Below are positions 4,631-20,275 of a DNA stretch of 23,159 nt, piece by piece. The notes under the pieces were generated by a model that was not told where the DNA came from, ran no database searches, and saw only the letters and a program-made list of their open reading frames with translations. The stretch is from a virus: IMG/VR virus record IMGVR_UViG_3300048550_000999, positions 1 through 23,159 of that record; one strand, given 5' to 3'. The stretch's first letter is position 1. Every line of letters begins with the position of its first letter. A program made the position numbers and the translations under genes.

Positions 4631-5032
4631 CTAGGCGCTTCTTTCAATAACCAATTCCAAGGAAAACTCATTAACAAAGAAATCGTTTTGTATATCTGAG
4701 TTTATTTGCGCAATATTGGCTTTAAATATGGAATACCCTGTGTCCTCTAATTCGCTCCTTAAATCATCCCGCTCGAACGCTGATAATAACCTTCCAAAGT
4801 TTTCTTTTACATCATTGCTTTTGGAATCGGCATAATGCGCCTCATACCTGCAATTTATGTTGAGATTGAATACATCTGTGAGCATGGGATGAAAAATATC
4901 TGCTGTGTCCATATGGACAAGAATGCAGGGCGCGGGCAATTCATCTGACCTTATTCCTTCTACCACGGGAACTCCCGTTGCAGCACTATCAAGTTTTTGC
5001 ACAATTTTTTGCAATAATAACTCGCTGAACAT
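4631..5032 (-). CDS. Tail terminator / tail completion protein candidate
   Basis: 133 residues. Pattern: N-terminal helix (SELLLQKIVQKLDS), then GVPVVEGIRSDELPAPCILVHMD, a beta strand with NLNINCRYEAHY, a helix (ENFGRLLSAFERDDLRSEL) and a final beta pair (FFVNEFSLELVIE). This alpha-beta layout, with the P-x-I-x-V strand, is typical of tail terminator/minor tail completion proteins that cap the tail tube. It lies directly before the tail tube candidate, the usual order in siphophages. Its ATG overlaps the holin candidate's stop (TAATG). No alignment was possible; call rests on pattern and order. Confidence 0.6.
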   Translation of the reverse strand: MFSELLLQKIVQKLDSAATGVPVVEGIRSDELPAPCILVHMDTADIFHPMLTDVFNLNINCRYEAHYADSKSNDVKENFGRLLSAFERDDLRSELEDTGYSIFKANIAQINSDIQNDFFVNEFSLELVIERSA

Positions 5033-5175
5033 TATTTATTTTCTTTTACAAATTTATATACAAACCAAGCAATAGTGCATAAACCTGCACATATCCCAAC
5101 AATATTATTCCATTGCCCTAGCGTGAAACTAGCTATTGTGCCAACAATGCCGATATGTAAATTAATATCACTCAC
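5032..5175 (-). CDS. 47-residue membrane protein, small holin candidate
   Basis: Starts with GTG at 5175 (GTGA overlap with the preceding small ORF; an in-frame stop lies just upstream, so no earlier start) and ends with a TAATG overlap with the tail gene. The sequence SDINLHIGIVGTIASFTLGQ, then WNNIVGICAGLCTIAWFVYK and a basic end FVKENK suggests two short hydrophobic helices linked by QWNN, with a charged C-terminus, the design of small holins that I know from other phages. Coding potential is supported by coupling on both sides. If real, it forms the membrane pore releasing an endolysin encoded elsewhere; no endolysin is seen here. Confidence 0.58.
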   Translation of the reverse strand: MSDINLHIGIVGTIASFTLGQWNNIVGICAGLCTIAWFVYKFVKENK

Positions 5176-5276
5176 AACATTTCAATAGCTATTGCTATAA
5201 ATAAGCTCAAGATAATGCACAAATAAATTTTATAAATATTTGGCAAATTTTGTATTTTTTTTATTATTTTATTCAC
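5172..5276 (-). CDS. 34-residue single-TM peptide
   Basis: A short ORF starting with GTG at 5276, four bases inside the upstream gene (GTGA), and ending in another GTGA overlap with the next small ORF. The peptide has a basic N-terminus (NKIIKKIQNLPNIYKIY) and one hydrophobic helix (YLCIILSLFIAIAIEML), so N-in, C-out topology is expected. Coupling on both sides and the filling of an otherwise empty gap argue that it is real. It could be a small holin, an antiholin or a spanin partner. No family recognised. Confidence 0.5.
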   Translation of the reverse strand: MNKIIKKIQNLPNIYKIYLCIILSLFIAIAIEML

Positions 5277-5731
5277 TCTTTCCTTCCCCCTGGTCTTGCG
5301 TATGCTTGAGAACCACCAGTATACATGGGTGGTCTTGTTAAGCTACGACTGACTTCTGATTTAGAACATTTTTTTGCGACAAACACAGGTATTACTAAAT
5401 AAATGCACAGCAATATGCCAGCAATCATAAGCACTCTTTTTATATAATTTGTGAAACTCTCAAAACCGCTTGCATGCTTTTCCATTCCCTGCGAAACCAA
5501 CGCTTCCACATCACCCCTACTGAGCGCAGATATAGTATTCCTAGCCTCTTCTATTTCTGCGTTGCCACGAGCAACTTCCCCCAATAATGCGCCACCCCCA
5601 GCGCCTAAACCACTCCCAAGGGGTCCTCCTAATGCACTTCCTGCTGCGCCCCCAATGATAGCACCAGTTGTAGGGTAGAACTGCTTAAAGCTGCATGAAG
5701 AAAGCAACAGAGTTAATACAAGAAACCTCAT
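5273..5731 (-). CDS. Lipobox plus TM protein with glycine zipper; unimolecular spanin candidate
   Basis: 152 residues. The N-terminus MRFLVLTLLLSSC is a short lipoprotein signal with lipobox LSSC and lipidation at Cys13. Residues 22-51 are a glycine zipper (TTGAIIGGAAGSALGGPLGS...). A helix-forming linker (about 55-95) leads to a TM helix at about 99-119 and a basic cytoplasmic tail of about 32 residues. An outer-membrane lipid anchor joined to an inner-membrane helix is the topology of unimolecular spanins such as T1 gp11 (131 residues), which fuse the two membranes at lysis. The glycine zipper is unusual for spanins and could instead mean a pore-type or outer-membrane protein. Strong Shine-Dalgarno AAGGAGG at good distance. 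Stop overlaps the next start as GTGA. Confidence 0.6.
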   Translation of the reverse strand: MRFLVLTLLLSSCSFKQFYPTTGAIIGGAAGSALGGPLGSGLGAGGGALLGEVARGNAEIEEARNTISALSRGDVEALVSQGMEKHASGFESFTNYIKRVLMIAGILLCIYLVIPVFVAKKCSKSEVSRSLTRPPMYTGGSQAYARPGGRKE

Positions 5732-5753
5732 CAGTATAGCCTCCTTGTAGCTA

Positions 5754-6053
5754 TTAAGTGATGCTATTTGCTTGCAGGATTTGCTCTATATTGTCGACTG
5801 CTTGTAAGGTATCTGCCCTTGCTTGAGCTAGAATATCTAGGGCTTTGCCTACAGTATTTACATCATTCGAACACCCACAGCCATTGAATGTCAGATAATT
5901 ACCTAAGCTAACAGGACTATAGGGAGTTGCATTACCCAAACTAACTATTGCGGTTTCCAGATCGCTTATTCGGGCGGACGCGATAGAAACCTTATAATTT
6001 AGTCCCTTACCTATTACGCCGACATCAATGCCGACAGACTCAAAGAAACTCAC
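5754..6053 (-). CDS. Unknown 99-residue protein
   Basis: Starts with GTG inside a GTGA overlap with the Fn3-domain gene, so the pair is probably made together. N-terminal half is small and beta-like with a CGC motif (FNGCGCSNDV); the C-terminal third is helical (VGKALDILAQARADTLQAVDNIEQIL). No signal peptide, TM segment or family recognised. The CGC could bind metal or form a disulfide, but this is speculation. Confidence 0.55.
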   Translation of the reverse strand: MSFFESVGIDVGVIGKGLNYKVSIASARISDLETAIVSLGNATPYSPVSLGNYLTFNGCGCSNDVNTVGKALDILAQARADTLQAVDNIEQILQANSIT

Positions 6054-6424: not shown

Positions 6425-6622
6425 TTAATCTATATCACTGGCTTTAAATGCCAAGACCCATTTGGCAGACTGATTAAATACATGTTTTTTATCATTTTCA
6501 TCTACAATAGTAGATTCTGCTCTTCTCAATGCAGCTTGTGCTGTATCTATAACTACTAGCAACTCTTCAATTTTTTTCATTTGATTGCTAATTGTTTTTT
6601 GTAATTCTTTTTCTAAACTCAT
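6425..6622 (-). CDS. Small coiled-coil protein
   Basis: 65 residues from the ATG at 6622 (MSLEKELQKTISNQMKKIEE). Residues 1-40 form one amphipathic helix or coiled coil; the C-terminus KHVFNQSAKWVLAFKASDID looks like a short folded tail. The frame is open to an ATG at 6658, but those 12 residues overlap the end of the SGNH gene and are its DNA read out of frame; neither start has a good ribosome site. No family recognised. It could be a fibre or tail accessory, judging only by its place. Confidence 0.5.
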   Translation of the reverse strand: MSLEKELQKTISNQMKKIEELLVVIDTAQAALRRAESTIVDENDKKHVFNQSAKWVLAFKASDID

Positions 6623-6633
6623 TTTTAATTTTA

Positions 6634-7296
6634 TTAGTTTTGTATGAAATCGTAGCATTTAAATTTATCGTTGAATGCAAATGAACTGCCTAAGTTTGTA
6701 ATTTTTTTTGCCTTCTTTGTAATGTTTAACTTTTGAATAACCAATTGTTGAACAGATTTATTCAAATGTATGTTATCTTCTTTTTCTCCTGCTATACTTT
6801 GAACTAAAAAAGAATTTAGATCGCTTAAAACTTCATCATATATATCGCAAAACAAAATGTCATGATCTTTACAAAAAATATCAATTTCTTTATTCCACAT
6901 TAAAGTAGTTTTATTCTGCTCACTACGCTTATGAGGGTTAGCGCTGTAAATAATTAAATTATGATATAATTTTCTAATATCTAATATTGAACGCTTGAAT
7001 CTTGAAACAGAATCTATAATTTTATTATTTGGGTTTTGTGCGGAATGAGAAGGATACCAATGATTATATGTATTCCATCTGCAATCAGGTTCACCTAGGA
7101 CTATCATGAAATAATCATCTTTGCTGAAATGAGACATGATACTTAAAAGTTTCCTGCGTGTAGATTGTGCAAAATGTTGATTAGTAAAATTATTGTATTT
7201 TCCTACACCTATAAAAATAGTAAGAAAATAATCGCTGAAAGCGAAAGATCGACTGTGACTATCGCCGATAACTATCGTTTGCCTTGCAGACTCCAT
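6634..7296 (-). CDS. SGNH/GDSL-type hydrolase, esterase candidate
   Basis: 220 residues. Block I is VIGDSHSRSF with Ser13 as nucleophile; GEPDCR at 68-73 occupies the place of the later conserved block; DNIHLN at 174-179 supplies the Asp174/His177 pair of block V. These are the hallmarks of SGNH hydrolases, which often remove O-acetyl groups from glycans. No signal peptide is seen, so it would act in the cytoplasm or as part of the virion. It follows the sulfotransferase by 20 bases and no clear Shine-Dalgarno is present. Very AT-rich (14 G/C in the 60 bases at 6721-6780). The last 40 residues are basic and aromatic and unassigned. A sugar O-acetylesterase is the best guess. Confidence 0.72.
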   Translation of the reverse strand: MESARQTIVIGDSHSRSFAFSDYFLTIFIGVGKYNNFTNQHFAQSTRRKLLSIMSHFSKDDYFMIVLGEPDCRWNTYNHWYPSHSAQNPNNKIIDSVSRFKRSILDIRKLYHNLIIYSANPHKRSEQNKTTLMWNKEIDIFCKDHDILFCDIYDEVLSDLNSFLVQSIAGEKEDNIHLNKSVQQLVIQKLNITKKAKKITNLGSSFAFNDKFKCYDFIQN

Positions 7297-7316
7297 TTGT
7301 TAAAATTACCATATTC

Positions 7317-7889
7317 CTATGCGGAATCATAAAACTCGAACCGCCATAAATCGAAATCTTCACTATAATACTCTTTGAGTATATCCATTGCTTCATCAGT
7401 CACCTCGATTTTACGTTGCTTTGATTTGTTTTGATGCGGTATTATTATATCAAACTTTTGAAAAAATTTTTTATGATTACCTAGCCTCACTATATTATCA
7501 ATCGCTATACAGCCATTTCTGTCTCGTAAATAATCAATCTGAGGTCTGGTCATCATGTAGCCCCAATCATCTTGCACAGGAAGGCTTTTGCAGAAGCTCA
7601 AAAAATCTAAATGTTTAGTATGAGCAAACCAATTATAATATGATATAACCCTAGAAATAGGTTCTCTTATTAGCGCGCATGTCTTGTATCCATCTTGCAC
7701 ATCATAATCAGAAAGCATCATATGAGTATACTTTCCTGTTTTATCCTTATCTCCCCCTATATGAAATAAATCGAAACTTTCTTTTGTGTCTCTTGTAATT
7801 TTTGCTTGATCTAAAAACGCCGACTCAACCGACCAACCCCCGCACTTTGGTATATGAATATAGATAAGCTTATGTTTATGTATTATCAT
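7317..7889 (-). CDS. Sulfotransferase, PAPS-dependent (carbohydrate type)
   Basis: 190 residues. IHIPKCGGWSVESAF at 11-25 is the 5'-phosphosulfate-binding loop of the sulfotransferase family that includes heparan/chondroitin O-sulfotransferases, with the catalytic-type Lys15. IREPISRVISYYNW at 74-87 is the 3'-phosphate-binding element with the expected Arg and Ser. The enzyme would move a sulfo group from PAPS to a hydroxyl of an acceptor, most likely a sugar given three glycosyltransferases immediately upstream. It is short compared with eukaryotic members but both cofactor motifs are intact. Its AT content is very high (12 G/C in the 60 bases at 7441-7500). PAPS must come from the host; no PAPS synthesis gene is in the window. 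Confidence 0.83.
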   Translation of the reverse strand: MIIHKHKLIYIHIPKCGGWSVESAFLDQAKITRDTKESFDLFHIGGDKDKTGKYTHMMLSDYDVQDGYKTCALIREPISRVISYYNWFAHTKHLDFLSFCKSLPVQDDWGYMMTRPQIDYLRDRNGCIAIDNIVRLGNHKKFFQKFDIIIPHQNKSKQRKIEVTDEAMDILKEYYSEDFDLWRFEFYDSA

Positions 7890-8651
7890 TTAAGGTCTTT
7901 TTTTGTAAATATCTATTAGTTCTCCTAGCAAATCTTTATCTTTCCATTCCACTTGATTATCGGAAGTAGATTGCACTAAGCCTATCCTGCCAGCCTTATG
8001 AAAAATTTTAGTTGCTTCCTCTATTACATCCCCGCCAGTATTCCAATAAGCATCAGTATCTGTCACTAAATTATCTTGATGATAATCATTTAAGTCGCCT
8101 CCCCACACCCAATACAAAGAATATTCAGTAGCTCCGTCTTTAATATAGCTACATATATTGTGTGCTTCATCTAATTCTTTACATATTTGTCGCTTTAAAA
8201 ACATCGGAGTGACCCCACACCTAATCTCGGGTTTAGGCTTTCCTAGAAATCCAGAGGCTTTATTCCACCACTCTTCTTGAGCCCCAGTTAATGGCTCCGA
8301 CCAACTTAATAAAGGTTTATTATTAGGCATTAATAATTTTATATGACCTTTGAATAAAAACAGGCAATCGGCATCCATAGTTAGAATCCATTTAGTATCT
8401 ACAAAGCGCCAAGACTTTAATTTTAACACCTGTTGCTTGCCCCACCCACTCATATCAGGTATGCTAAATTGCTTATCTGAAACCACTTTTACTGGCAAAT
8501 GTTCTGTCTGCAATGGGTTTATTTTTTCATCTGTTATAATTAATAACTTACAACCCCTTATGCCATTTAAAGAAGGACTAAGTATTTCATTAAAACGCCT
8601 TACATCTGCTTCACCTTTTATTGGTAAAACTATCGTCACATCATACATCAT
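7890..8651 (-). CDS. GT-A-like glycosyltransferase with DAD motif
   Basis: 253 residues. DVTIVLPIKGEADVRRFNEI at the N-terminus and KLLIITDEK form the first nucleotide-binding strands. GWGKQQVLKLKSWRFVDTKW precedes LTMDADCLFL with D93-A-D95, the metal-binding DxD. The order (KQQxLKLK before a DxD) is like the DUF6492/capsule-type glycosyltransferases. RCGVTPMFLKRQI and EYSLYWVW after the DxD would form the acceptor site. The Met-Met start overlaps the upstream stop as ATGA; its own stop directly abuts the next ATG (TAAATG). Likely a cytoplasmic transferase acting in the same glycan pathway. Sugar and acceptor unknown. Confidence 0.8.
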   Translation of the reverse strand: MMYDVTIVLPIKGEADVRRFNEILSPSLNGIRGCKLLIITDEKINPLQTEHLPVKVVSDKQFSIPDMSGWGKQQVLKLKSWRFVDTKWILTMDADCLFLFKGHIKLLMPNNKPLLSWSEPLTGAQEEWWNKASGFLGKPKPEIRCGVTPMFLKRQICKELDEAHNICSYIKDGATEYSLYWVWGGDLNDYHQDNLVTDTDAYWNTGGDVIEEATKIFHKAGRIGLVQSTSDNQVEWKDKDLLGELIDIYKKRP

Positions 8652-9649
8652 AACTGTTTATAAATTTTAGATTTTCTAATGTTTGAGATAAAGCTTTTCA
8701 GACTTAATTTTTCTGACTTTATAATCTTTTTCATGTGCGAAACAGCCAAATTTGCATAAGGAATTAAATATTGCACATCATCTAATTTATCAAAATACAG
8801 CGGATAGTCTGCACCTAGATACTCCACGATTGATGGATGCCGTGGCACTAATATAGGAACGGCTCGCTGAATACATTCTAATACAGTATTGTTGGCGCTT
8901 GTATCAAATACATCCATTAAAACTATACTTTGATTTAATAATTTATCATACTGCAAATTATCTAGCTGATGCCTCTCCTCTACGCCCTCCAGCCTTACAT
9001 TAAATTTTTCCGCCTCTACTTCTAATTTAGACCTAACCAATTTGTATGGCTCACTATCCTTTTTGTACGGATATAATTTCATTCTCCTATAGCCTTTTGG
9101 AAGGGCAACCTTATATATTGATGTTTGTTTTCTTAGCCACCAGCCTACTGACAACACGATATTACCACCTTGCCACTCGGTAAAATCCTCATCGCTATAT
9201 GGATGCAAAATGGACTCAAAAAGGTGAGAATATTTGGGAAAAAAACTTTTTAATCCCTGCGTATGATATTCACTCATCGCAAATATACCTTTGCAATAGT
9301 TTAAGCTAAACTTGAAATGCTCATCATCCTCAACCCTAACACTATTAGGATTATCATACCAGCTTGGCATATTATGGGGATTATGTATAAATCCCACCCA
9401 AGGTTCTGTGATAGGAATACTTTTATTCTTAATATTTATGTTTCTGAACCAATCAAATGGGCATTCTATAAATGTTTCACACCTAACTCCATTTTCATTA
9501 TGCAATGGCTTCATAGCAGCCAATACATTCTTCCACCCGCCCCTATGAGTTAATAAGGCTGGCTGGGTGGCTAAATTAAACTTTCCGCGCTTATAATTTT
9601 TATTAAAGACAATCTCATAATTGCCCCAATCATCTTTAGGTTTTGTCAT
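8648..9649 (-). CDS. GT-B fold glycosyltransferase (GT4-like)
   Basis: 333 residues. The N-terminal half has the acceptor-side features GGWKNVLAAMKPLHNENG, EPWVGFIHNPHNMP and CKGIFAMSEYHTQGL. The C-terminal half begins with NIVLSVGWWLRKQ and has the donor-binding segment NTVLECIQRAVPILVPRHPS with Glu258, where GT4-type enzymes carry the conserved E of the EX7E region; EYLG follows. The first Glu of a full EX7E motif is not obvious (SANNTVLE replaces it), so donor chemistry may differ. It probably extends the glycan begun by a neighbour. It starts 14 bases inside the upstream glycosyltransferase and ends in an ATGA overlap with the next, so the three are coupled. Confidence 0.8.
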   Translation of the reverse strand: MTKPKDDWGNYEIVFNKNYKRGKFNLATQPALLTHRGGWKNVLAAMKPLHNENGVRCETFIECPFDWFRNINIKNKSIPITEPWVGFIHNPHNMPSWYDNPNSVRVEDDEHFKFSLNYCKGIFAMSEYHTQGLKSFFPKYSHLFESILHPYSDEDFTEWQGGNIVLSVGWWLRKQTSIYKVALPKGYRRMKLYPYKKDSEPYKLVRSKLEVEAEKFNVRLEGVEERHQLDNLQYDKLLNQSIVLMDVFDTSANNTVLECIQRAVPILVPRHPSIVEYLGADYPLYFDKLDDVQYLIPYANLAVSHMKKIIKSEKLSLKSFISNIRKSKIYKQL

Positions 9650-10379
9650 GCATAATAGCTTTTATGTCGCCTGGTATAAAATGCATAAAAGCTTTTGCAA
9701 AATGATCATATATTGCAGTTAGATGCTCATCGGCGTCTGTATAAGCATCTTTTCTATGATGAAAATGGAGGCTTGTTATTTTTCTCTTATGAGGCATTCT
9801 TTTTCTCCAAAACCCTACATTATGATCCTCCGTGAATTTAGCATGAGTAAAACTATTTTTTAATTTCTCCAACGGAGACTGCTCATAAAATCCCTGACCC
9901 TGCAAATATAAATCAGCCCACAATTCTGGCACCTCTTGCTTTTGCGCAAAGATATAACCAGCATTATATTTGCCATACAACCTATCCTTTTCCTGATCCC
10001 TGTGAAAATGCTGAGATAACTGCAATTCTACATTCTCTACATTTATTTCACTTAATAATACTACATCAGCATCAACAAACATTGTATTTTGGTGGCGCTT
10101 GATTGCTTCTTTCATAACAAACATCTTACCATATATACTTACAGGGCAAAAGTGCTGCTTTTTTTTATGAGGTATATCAAAATTGCTAAATCCATAATTA
10201 TCAAAATCTAAGAACTGACAATCAGTATCCTTAAGGACATCCCTTGATACAGCATCCGCTAGACATAATATGGGCACATCACCATGATACTTTCTTATGG
10301 TATGCATGCACACGATAGCCTCGCGCGCGTGAGCATCACCTCTTGTTACGAGGCTAAACGATTTTATACCTACAGGCAA
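9636..10379 (-). CDS. GT-A fold glycosyltransferase
   Basis: 247 residues. The N-terminus IKSFSLVTRGDAHAREAIVC followed by DVPILCLAD is the first part of a Rossmann-like nucleotide-sugar binding fold; residues 100-109 contain MFVDADVVLL with the D103-A-D105 metal-binding motif of GT-A enzymes. YNAGYIFAQ, a GT8-like element after the DxD, and HNVGFW follow. It likely transfers a sugar from a nucleotide-sugar donor in the cytoplasm; the sugar is not predictable. The start is TTG: no in-frame ATG occurs before residue 25, and the first 20 residues are clearly part of the domain. AGG lies five bases upstream. It overlaps the giant fibre gene by 10 bases and the next glycosyltransferase by 14. Confidence 0.85.
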   Translation of the reverse strand: MPVGIKSFSLVTRGDAHAREAIVCMHTIRKYHGDVPILCLADAVSRDVLKDTDCQFLDFDNYGFSNFDIPHKKKQHFCPVSIYGKMFVMKEAIKRHQNTMFVDADVVLLSEINVENVELQLSQHFHRDQEKDRLYGKYNAGYIFAQKQEVPELWADLYLQGQGFYEQSPLEKLKNSFTHAKFTEDHNVGFWRKRMPHKRKITSLHFHHRKDAYTDADEHLTAIYDHFAKAFMHFIPGDIKAIMHDKT

Positions 10380-18016: not shown

Positions 18017-18948
18017 TAAGAGTGAGTTTGATGAACTATTCTTTTCTCTTCGCCCTTAACAGCTGTATGACCATACAAGCAGGTTAAGGCATGTTGCTCG
18101 GAGGCATCCATAACATCATATTTCCTTCTCAACTGAAGTGATAAACCACTTGTTGGATCACTAGCATTCAAGACTTCGCCAACATGCATTCCAGCTTCTG
18201 GCGCTCTAGGCAATCTCATTACGGATACAAGGCTATCCCTTGAGCCCGCAACTGCACAAGTATTAAGAATGCCAGTTTCGAGATAATTATAGGTATAAAT
18301 ATTCATTCCCATAACATCCAATCCTACATCTGCTTTCCTGATGCCTTCATTAATATTAAATGAGGCATTGGTGACAGTTGTCATATCGGTAAGAAGACCA
18401 TAATATGCTTTTGTGCTAAGAAGTAACCATCTACCATCCTTGGGTGCATCAACTAAATCGAGTTGTTCAGCCATGTTCATGGCATCATCCATACTAAAAC
18501 TACTCTCAGCAACAGCAGCACCAGCGGATTGAGAATTTGCAGCGACAATTTCTGCAAGCAAATCATCAATAACCTTCCTTGCCAAACCATGTGCAGCTTG
18601 AGCCCCTGCTTGCTCTAACAATGTGACATCAGATTTTTCCCGCTCCGTATCACCAAGTGCATAAGCGATATACTCATGGTTATCCAAAGTTACGGAAATT
18701 GGCTCTTGGTCAATATCTTCCACTGTATTATAATTACCAGCGAAAGTTGTAGATGAAGTTAATTTATGAAAAATACGAGTTTGAATTGAAGCATCCTTTG
18801 ATAATGCGTCGCCACCAAGGTCGCTATGAATAGCGCTTAAAAACCCAAGGTCTTCATTAAAAGTCTGCAAAGCGGATTGCAGAATAATATCTGCTCTAAT
18901 ATTACCGAAATTAGTTCCGCCTGGTATTAATGATGTGAAATTAGCCAT
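18016..18948 (-). CDS. Major capsid protein (HK97-fold likely)
   Basis: 310 residues, the expected size for a capsid shell subunit, lying after protease and scaffold candidates. The middle has the usual capsid pattern: a beta-rich EPISVTLDNHEYIAYALGD, then a long helix (LLEQAGAQAAHGLARKVIDDLLAEI) corresponding to the spine helix of the P domain. LLLSTKAYYGLLTD and GMNIYTYNYL resemble the A-domain strands of HK97-fold coat proteins. The start overlaps the scaffold stop by one base, and its own stop overlaps the next ATG in the same way, so a high translation rate is probably shared. I see no sign of an N-terminal scaffold delta domain, in agreement with the separate scaffold gene. Confidence comes from position plus fold pattern. 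Confidence 0.88.
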   Translation of the reverse strand: MANFTSLIPGGTNFGNIRADIILQSALQTFNEDLGFLSAIHSDLGGDALSKDASIQTRIFHKLTSSTTFAGNYNTVEDIDQEPISVTLDNHEYIAYALGDTEREKSDVTLLEQAGAQAAHGLARKVIDDLLAEIVAANSQSAGAAVAESSFSMDDAMNMAEQLDLVDAPKDGRWLLLSTKAYYGLLTDMTTVTNASFNINEGIRKADVGLDVMGMNIYTYNYLETGILNTCAVAGSRDSLVSVMRLPRAPEAGMHVGEVLNASDPTSGLSLQLRRKYDVMDASEQHALTCLYGHTAVKGEEKRIVHQTHS

Positions 18949-19379
18949 TATTTAAGTCCTCCTAGGATTTGTTCTTTGTGTTTTCTATAAAATGCGACCT
19001 TCTCTGCTGGGTCTGTAATTTCTTTATACTTACTATAAGCATCGACTTCTTCGGCTTCAATCTTTCCCTGCTCAACAGGCTCTACCGCAACACTCTCTAA
19101 AATTGTAATAGCTTTCTCAGTTCCAGAAATTTCCTCTTGAGTAAGTTTTTCAACCTGATCCTCAAGCTCTTCATTTGAGGCATTGAGGCTCTCAAGTGAA
19201 GATTCTAAATCAACCTTAATTTTCTCTAGCTCTTCAACGCGCTCTTGAAATGCTGAATTTTCTGCACTAAGATTATCAATTTGTGATTTGAAATCTTGAT
19301 TCTCGGATTCTAGTGCATCAACTCTGCCTTGCAATAGCTCATGCTCCTCCACAATATTTTTAGCTTCAATATCTTTCAT
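18948..19379 (-). CDS. Coiled-coil scaffold protein candidate
   Basis: 143 residues, strongly acidic. Residues about 10-85 are a long heptad-patterned coiled coil (ELLQGRVDALESENQDFKSQ, then VEELEKIKVDLESSLESLNA). The C-terminus is a short basic helix (VAFYRKHKEQILGGLK). A coiled coil with a basic C-terminal helix is the general design of scaffold proteins, which bind the capsid protein electrostatically through that helix. It lies between the protease and the capsid gene, exactly where a scaffold is expected, and its stop overlaps the capsid ATG by one base (TAATG). No signal peptide or TM segment. Family identity is not recognised; the role is inferred from position and design. Confidence 0.72.
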   Translation of the reverse strand: MKDIEAKNIVEEHELLQGRVDALESENQDFKSQIDNLSAENSAFQERVEELEKIKVDLESSLESLNASNEELEDQVEKLTQEEISGTEKAITILESVAVEPVEQGKIEAEEVDAYSKYKEITDPAEKVAFYRKHKEQILGGLK

Positions 19380-19459
19380 TGTAATAGTCTTTTTGTCTCC
19401 ATGCTTTTTTGTTTTTTTGATAGTCTACTGACTATCCAATATAAATATAAATATAAATA
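19380..19459 (-). promoter_or_regulatory. 80-base AT-rich gap with hairpin before the scaffold/capsid genes
   Basis: The largest gap in the head module. It holds a near-perfect ATAAAT tandem run at 19439-19460 and a 7-bp perfect hairpin with a 4-base loop at 19419-19436 (arms GATAGTC and GACTATC). On the minus strand the hairpin is followed by A-rich, not T-rich, sequence, so it is not an intrinsic terminator in the transcribed direction. Its place just ahead of the scaffold and capsid genes suggests a promoter, an mRNA processing or a stability element, but I see no convincing -35/-10 pair. Function is inference. Confidence 0.35.
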
Positions 19460-20275
19460 TTAAGATAATTGCATCTTTAATATAGTTATTGCTTCTTCCG
19501 CCGAGCCGTTGATGTCGATGAGCGCTTTCTCTTTTGCTTTTTTTCCAAGATACACTTGCCCCCGCATAGTTTCCGACCCAATATTTGGTCTGCTTGACAA
19601 AACACCTTCTTTAAAATCAGCAAATATTTGCTGTACCATTTCTTGCATATATTCTTTTTGGTCATCTGATAATTTGGTTCCCTCAAACCCTGCTCCTTTA
19701 TAGGTAGCTTCTTTATTTTTAATTAATTCTACTTTTACACCCTTATTCTCATAAGCAGCACTGCTGTCAACGACTGGCAAATAAACCCCGATTGAGCCAA
19801 CCTTTGCACTTTTGGTCGCAAACACCATATTAGCTTGTGAGCCGATCCAATACGCAGCGGAAGCCATCATCCCTTCTGTAACTGAATAAACTGGCTTTGT
19901 TTCAGCAAGCTTTGCTACTTCTTCCGCAGCCTCCATTATGCCAGTAGCCGAACCGCCCGCTGAATCTATATCCAAAACCACACCTTTAACGCTTTCATCC
20001 TGCCGTAATTTTATTACTTCGGACTTTATTCTATCCGTATTTACTAGACCGAAATATTTCTCAACTGCTGGTGAGACACCCTTCATGAATGTGCCATACA
20101 TAGGCAAAACAGCTATTTCACCTACTAATGGATCAGCAACACTTTCAGTCGATTCAATTTTTGCACCCCTGACAAATTCCTGCTCTACCAATGTTCTTAA
20201 TGAGTTATAAGCTTCCATGGTAACTAGCCACGGATTGCATAATACTTCTTCTCTTATTTTAGCTATCTGTATCAT
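19460..20275 (-). CDS. Prohead protease, S49 (SppA/lambda C-like) family
   Basis: Capsid maturation serine protease. From the chosen start (MIQIAKIREEVL) it has 271 residues. The S49 core is clear: LDIDSAGGSATGIMEAA, then MMASAAYWIGSQ with the nucleophile Ser139, then AKVGSIGVY, then the general-base Lys193 in TYKGAGF; the 54-residue spacing suits the SppA-type Ser/Lys dyad. The frame is open to 20320, but the extra 15 residues (MPSRKNRNRK...) are only the portal's C-terminal DNA repeat read in another frame. The internal ATG has a Shine-Dalgarno AGGAA seven bases upstream, so I prefer it. Overlap with the portal is then 17 bases. Unlike lambda C, it lacks a fused scaffold; a separate coiled-coil gene follows. 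Confidence 0.92.
   Translation of the reverse strand: MIQIAKIREEVLCNPWLVTMEAYNSLRTLVEQEFVRGAKIESTESVADPLVGEIAVLPMYGTFMKGVSPAVEKYFGLVNTDRIKSEVIKLRQDESVKGVVLDIDSAGGSATGIMEAAEEVAKLAETKPVYSVTEGMMASAAYWIGSQANMVFATKSAKVGSIGVYLPVVDSSAAYENKGVKVELIKNKEATYKGAGFEGTKLSDDQKEYMQEMVQQIFADFKEGVLSSRPNIGSETMRGQVYLGKKAKEKALIDINGSAEEAITILKMQLS

Follow-up and report, generated by a model that had tools for sequence, protein, structure and literature searches.

Three coupled genes for small membrane proteins, termed here ORF1, ORF2 and ORF3, probably constitute a compact late lysis module of several unrelated phage lineages, which themselves are likely to infect marine Verrucomicrobia. The three genes exist, are coupled to one another, move as a unit and evolve under purifying selection. 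ORF1 resembles a unimolecular spanin (u-spanin) in its architecture, ORF3 is holin-like, and ORF2 lies between them.

Results

Organization of the locus

The window, a complete virus record of 23,159 bases, belongs to a siphovirus-like phage with a structural operon on the minus strand. This operon comprises portal-, S49 protease- and capsid-like genes, a 1630-aa fibre with a carbohydrate-binding domain, glycosyl/sulfotransferase-like genes, ORF1 to ORF3, and tail terminator-like and tube-like genes; names given without a cited domain match were assigned from gene order and a reading of the sequence. A tblastn search of deposited phage records gave no direct relatives of the tail-tube protein. 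Next to the fibre lie a sulfotransferase-like protein (IHIPKCGGWSVE) and three that are glycosyltransferase-like (7317-7889 and 7890-10379, minus strand), and some of these sulfo- and glycosyltransferase-like families are common to otherwise unrelated cassette-bearing genome types.

ORF1 (5273..5731, minus strand) starts with ATG and encodes a 152-aa lipoprotein, characterized from its sequence and an 11-member alignment. Its Shine-Dalgarno sequence, aaggagg, precedes the ATG as part of caaggagg (5740..5747, minus strand). The preliminary description had proposed that the apparently empty stretch 5033-5272 is filled by two small GTG-started ORFs, and their coordinates proved exact on the minus strand: ORF2 (5172..5276, minus strand) encodes a cationic peptide of 34 aa and ORF3 (5032..5175, minus strand) a protein of 47 aa. 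Topology prediction bore out the hydrophobic helices claimed for both, with one transmembrane (TM) helix in ORF2 and a weak first segment followed by a strong one in ORF3. A Shine-Dalgarno-like purine stretch (gggggaaggaaaga; 5277..5290, minus strand) precedes ORF2 within ORF1. All of the overlaps that had been described were found, namely GTGA between ORF1 and ORF2, GTGA between ORF2 and ORF3, and TAATG between ORF3 and the coupled downstream gene. The latter (4631..5032, minus strand) lies outside the cassette and is tail terminator-like, with a PF20765 match (E 6e-4) just short of the Pfam cut-off. Upstream of ORF1, and likewise part of its context, is a 99-aa gene (5754..6053, minus strand) that resembles the N-terminus alone of 737-aa fibres in the sister phages G011 and G012; its product has the appearance of a fibre trimmed to its attachment end.

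Conservation of the three genes

A profile search with ORF1 recovered 39 loci in viral contigs, plus a single locus in a bacterial genome collection. By tblastn against 50,697 deposited phage records, ORF1 had no relatives. Across three unrelated genome types, the order ORF1>ORF2>ORF3 recurred in approximately 25 distinct viral loci, and nearly all distinct loci encode a lipoprotein, then a peptide of 31-40 aa, and then a protein of 47-54 aa. In these relatives, the first overlap (ORF1/ORF2) is mostly 4 or 14 nt and the second (ORF2/ORF3) 1 or 4 nt. Median dN/dS was 0.13 for ORF2 (29 pairs; 28 distinct alleles) and 0.12 for ORF3 (27 pairs; 26 distinct alleles). Stop codons or frame breaks in related genomes, which had been named beforehand as the observation that would count against the small ORFs, were absent from both ORF2 and ORF3. 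Among 20,000 order-1 Markov sequences matched in composition, a pair of TM ORFs, each 30 aa or longer, chained by an overlap of at most 5 nt, arose by chance at a frequency of about 5e-5. The conservation across relatives is stronger evidence than this figure that the genes are real. ORF2 and ORF3 are real genes under purifying selection.

Relatives of ORF2 mostly start with MKN(x)KLL. Since the ORF2 of the window is the most divergent allele, with 12-24% identity to the rest, its own status as a gene rests mainly on its position, length, TM helix and coupling.

Departures from the common arrangement were confined to a few loci. The frame of ORF1 was broken in one contig (L013/L081), probably through sequencing error, since many further genes of that contig are also split. 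ORF1 deviates at its C-terminal end in L072, a TM coiled-coil protein occupies the place of ORF3 in L002, and the L009 and L010 lineages carry ORF1-ORF2 with no adjoining ORF3.

In several relatives, moron-like ORFs with zinc-ribbon motifs, several of them with TM segments, are inserted on the opposite strand between cassette genes (L001 2501-3040; L003 1421-1864; L004 1100-1474 and 1580-2122; L013 6508-6870); the window has none. ORF2 and ORF3 remain intact despite such insertions in L001, L003, L004 and others.

Distribution among genome types and probable host

All-against-all comparison placed the cassette in three unrelated genome types: siphovirus-like genomes (G000, G005, G015, G016), podovirus-like genomes (G001, G002, G004, G010, G017-G020), and podovirus-like genomes that encode proteins thousands of residues long (G003, G006, G007). 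Among the clustered genomes, the cassette family was the sole family common to all three; its cluster also takes in phage P8625 through gp27, a relative of ORF3. The gene downstream of the cassette varies, being tail terminator-like in the siphovirus-like contigs and encoding a protein of 544-872 aa with the motif MxRYRxYGKLDD in the podovirus-like contigs. Judged by these sequence comparisons, the cassette is a conserved mobile module. A 77-aa protein of the window (VVIDTAQAALRRAE..HVFNQSAKWVL; 6425-6658, minus strand) has a close relative right after the cassette in the unrelated podovirus-like locus L003 (about 2162-2347) and is possibly an additional member of the mobile region.

One copy of the cassette was found in the Verrucomicrobia single-cell genome AG-908-P09, on a 40-kb contig with phage genes (L084; CACFTI010000022.1); this contig ties the podovirus-like group to a host. 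P8625 is reported to be the first lytic phage of Verrucomicrobia brought into culture, and its paper names no lysis gene. From this one single-cell genome and this one cultured phage with an ORF3 relative, it is probable that the cassette-bearing phages infect marine Verrucomicrobia.

In the sister siphophages G011-G013, which lack ORF1, the slot of the cassette is occupied by other small membrane proteins (L042 in G013, 18909-19728 and on to G013 20010; L038 in G011, 6961-7774). These are a TM coiled-coil protein of 116-118 aa and a multi-TM protein of 153 aa, neither of which had a match in deposited phages, and in G013 also a TM coiled-coil protein of 73 aa. It is possible that they form an alternative lysis set.

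ORF1 has the architecture of a u-spanin

The lipobox and C-terminal TM helix that had been noted in the upstream gene were both present. ORF1 contains the lipobox LSSC (Cys13, with Ser at +2), a glycine zipper (about residues 21-56), a helix (57-95), a TM helix (100-118) with a hydropathy of 2.93, compared with 2.97 for T1 gp11, and a conserved cytoplasmic tail (AKKCSKSE..LTRPP). The alignment of 11 members has 41 invariant columns. Among the relatives the lipobox Cys is invariant, is preceded by G, S or A and is followed by Ser in every member, while the signal peptide diverges. The aligned members retain the C-terminal TM helix, and none has a periplasmic Cys in the stretch from the lipobox to that helix. 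Known u-spanins likewise have an outer-membrane lipoprotein signal and a C-terminal TM helix, and a periplasmic cysteine was absent in 58 of 58 (Kongari et al. 2018, PMC6139136). At the level of primary structure and predicted topology, ORF1 thus has u-spanin architecture.

The likeness to T1 gp11 drawn in the preliminary description did not hold as kinship. There was no BLAST hit between the two proteins, hhalign gave a probability of 1.3%, and the periplasmic part of ORF1 is glycine-zipper/helical instead of beta, with an all-helical AF2 model of low confidence (pLDDT 57). Kinship to gp11 was rejected on these grounds, and ORF1 is best described as a separate, new u-spanin-like family. Matches of ORF1 to glycine-zipper families all fell short of the cut-offs (PF13488, E 0.0016-0.014; PF05433, E 0.51), and its glycine-zipper part weakly matched segments of tape-measure proteins.

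ORF3 is holin-like

ORF3 consists of a weakly hydrophobic segment with the motif GxxGTxAS, a strong TM helix (residues 25-43) with VGIxAG, and a cationic C-terminus (KFVKENK), and its AF2 model is one helical run (pLDDT 77). The commonest PHROG matches of 21 ORF3 members were all holin families (phrog_920 in 7, phrog_20 in 5 and phrog_1350 in 4). Matches of single proteins were weak, the best of any member reaching E 5.9e-4 (phrog_920). The commonest Pfam match of the family was the HP1 holin (PF16080), with Pfam holins below the cut-off. The ORF2 family, scanned as a matched short-TM control, gave zero holin matches; by this comparison such matches are specific to ORF3. Against phage 21 S and T1 gp13, hhalign of the ORF3 profile did no better than shuffled controls, and homology of ORF3 to these two proteins was rejected.

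Two deposited proteins, both annotated as "hypothetical protein," are relatives of ORF3. P8625 gp27 (AKA60278) matched a cassette ORF3 with E 2.6e-7, and BAQ94285 of the Ayaqvirus S45C18 (Autographiviridae) shares 49% identity with ORF3 (E 3e-4). No ORF1 or ORF2 homologue was recognized beside either of them. The Ayaqvirus gene immediately follows the fibre gene, with TerL and an amidase downstream of it; in T7, the holin gene 17.5 occupies this position. In view of the frequent weak holin matches and the Ayaqvirus position on the one hand, and the lack of homology by hhalign on the other, ORF3 is termed holin-like rather than a proven holin.

Search for an endolysin

No endolysin was found in the cassette-bearing phages with ten Pfam wall-enzyme families (PF00959, PF01510, PF01520, PF01464, PF00182, PF08291, PF13539, PF07486, PF00877 and PF05838), each searched against 14-17 related records that are possibly fragments; the PF00959 and PF01510 searches left out G015-G020, and those with PF00182 and PF05838 had no control match above the cut-off. 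Among phages, the Ayaqvirus amidase was the only match above threshold; an SLT match was obtained in the host single-cell genome, on a different contig, and a sub-threshold M15 match lay inside a 3765-aa protein of G007. A PHROG scan of 67 proteins from two records yielded no lysis family among 25 families listed of 90. The enzyme may belong to an unrecognized family or be encoded outside the fragments or, as is unlikely, none may be used.

Discussion

The cassette that had been proposed, a lysis cassette with a u-spanin candidate, remains the best reading of the locus, and its coupled membrane-protein genes were confirmed; its function in lysis was reached by interpretation, and no endolysin accompanies it in the related cassette-bearing records. 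The lysis reading draws on the order of the cassette upstream of different structural genes, the u-spanin features of ORF1, the holin matches of ORF3, the position of the Ayaqvirus relative and the other small membrane proteins that fill the cassette slot in sister siphophages without ORF1; it also draws on the cassette being the one family common to all three genome types. Against it stand the missing endolysin, the weakness of the holin matches, the hhalign result for phage 21 S and T1 gp13, the cytoplasmic tail of ORF1 and the absence of ORF3 in L009 and L010.

By analogy with known lysis systems, we infer membrane permeabilization, outer-membrane disruption and a role for ORF2 as follows. 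ORF3, as a minimal holin of class II or pinholin-like type, would permeabilize the inner membrane at a set time late in infection, after which an enzyme would cut the wall. ORF1 would be tethered to the outer membrane through its N-terminal lipid and to the inner one through its C-terminal TM helix. With the wall cut, ORF1 would be free of its mesh and would join or breach the two membranes, its glycine-zipper/helical periplasmic part serving to fuse or breach the outer one. ORF2 may be an accessory that tunes ORF1 or ORF3, most likely as an antiholin or timing partner. In a variant of this scheme, to which we give very little credence, host lysis would need no classical endolysin to cut the wall, and ORF1 to ORF3 would make up the entire lysis apparatus, in a form suited to the verrucomicrobial envelope; ORF2 would then be an inhibitor of wall synthesis of the single-gene-lysis type, working with the holin-like ORF3 and the envelope-spanning glycine-zipper protein ORF1.

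Phage lipoproteins that serve in superinfection exclusion exist, T5 Llp among them, and the cassette could be an envelope moron of this kind, with a lipoprotein that obstructs receptors or the entry of DNA, aided in the inner membrane by the small TM proteins. The missing endolysin would fit such a function, as would the exchange of the cassette, in the manner of host-interaction genes, from one phage type to another next to genes for glycosyl- and sulfotransferases, and the insertion of other membrane morons into it in several relatives. We nonetheless consider this explanation unlikely, as the cassette lies within the late structural operon and is translationally coupled to tail genes, ORF3 has holin matches, and the blocking of receptors needs no second membrane anchor, yet ORF1 has one.

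The occurrence of ORF1-ORF2 without ORF3 in the L009 and L010 lineages, together with the weak holin similarity of ORF3, would also suit a true u-spanin-like lysis protein beside two unrelated small membrane proteins, with the holin encoded elsewhere. The retention of the three-gene order in nearly all distinct loci, and holin matches that fall to ORF3 and never to ORF2, make this quite improbable. The location of the cassette between tail genes also raises the proposal that ORF1 to ORF3 are virion or assembly factors, forming a DNA-ejection conduit through the envelope or helping tail assembly. The weak tape-measure matches of the glycine-zipper part and the tight coupling to the tail terminator-like gene point in this direction; a lipobox is unexpected in a virion protein, however, and the cassette occurs in genome types with different sets of virion genes, so that a virion role appears very improbable.

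Read as a lysis module, the cassette offers three specific genes, with many homologues, as candidates for lysis, a proposed kind of u-spanin with a glycine zipper and predicted helices, set apart from the beta-rich kind of T1 gp11, and a holin-like protein of just 47 aa. Having moved between three genome types, the cassette is also of use in marking phages of this host group.

Comparison with known systems

The small class II holins and pinholins (phage 21 S, T1 gp13, the HP1 holin PF16080 and the families phrog_920, phrog_20 and phrog_1350) are, like ORF3, very small, with a cationic C-terminus, a weakly hydrophobic first segment rich in Gly, Ala, Ser and Thr, and a strong second TM helix, and ORF3 has weak profile matches to holins. 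The ORF3 family (47-54 aa) is shorter, and its profile aligns significantly with neither phage 21 S nor T1 gp13. The P8625 and Ayaqvirus proteins are ORF3 relatives that differ in their surroundings, where neither of the other cassette genes was recognized. Of the holin and endolysin with which u-spanins are encoded, a holin-like gene is present in the neighbourhood of ORF1, but an endolysin was not found with the ten families in records that may be incomplete. The u-spanin gp11 of T1 shares with ORF1 the outer-membrane lipoprotein signal, the C-terminal TM helix and the lack of a periplasmic cysteine (PMC6139136), and is of similar length (133 aa versus 152 aa). However, gp11 is mostly beta, whereas ORF1 combines a glycine zipper with predicted helices and has no sequence similarity to it; ORF1 also has a conserved cytoplasmic tail, and none is described for gp11. 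The glycine-zipper outer-membrane lipoproteins (PF13488, PF05433) likewise have a lipobox followed by a glycine zipper, to which ORF1 adds a C-terminal inner-membrane anchor.
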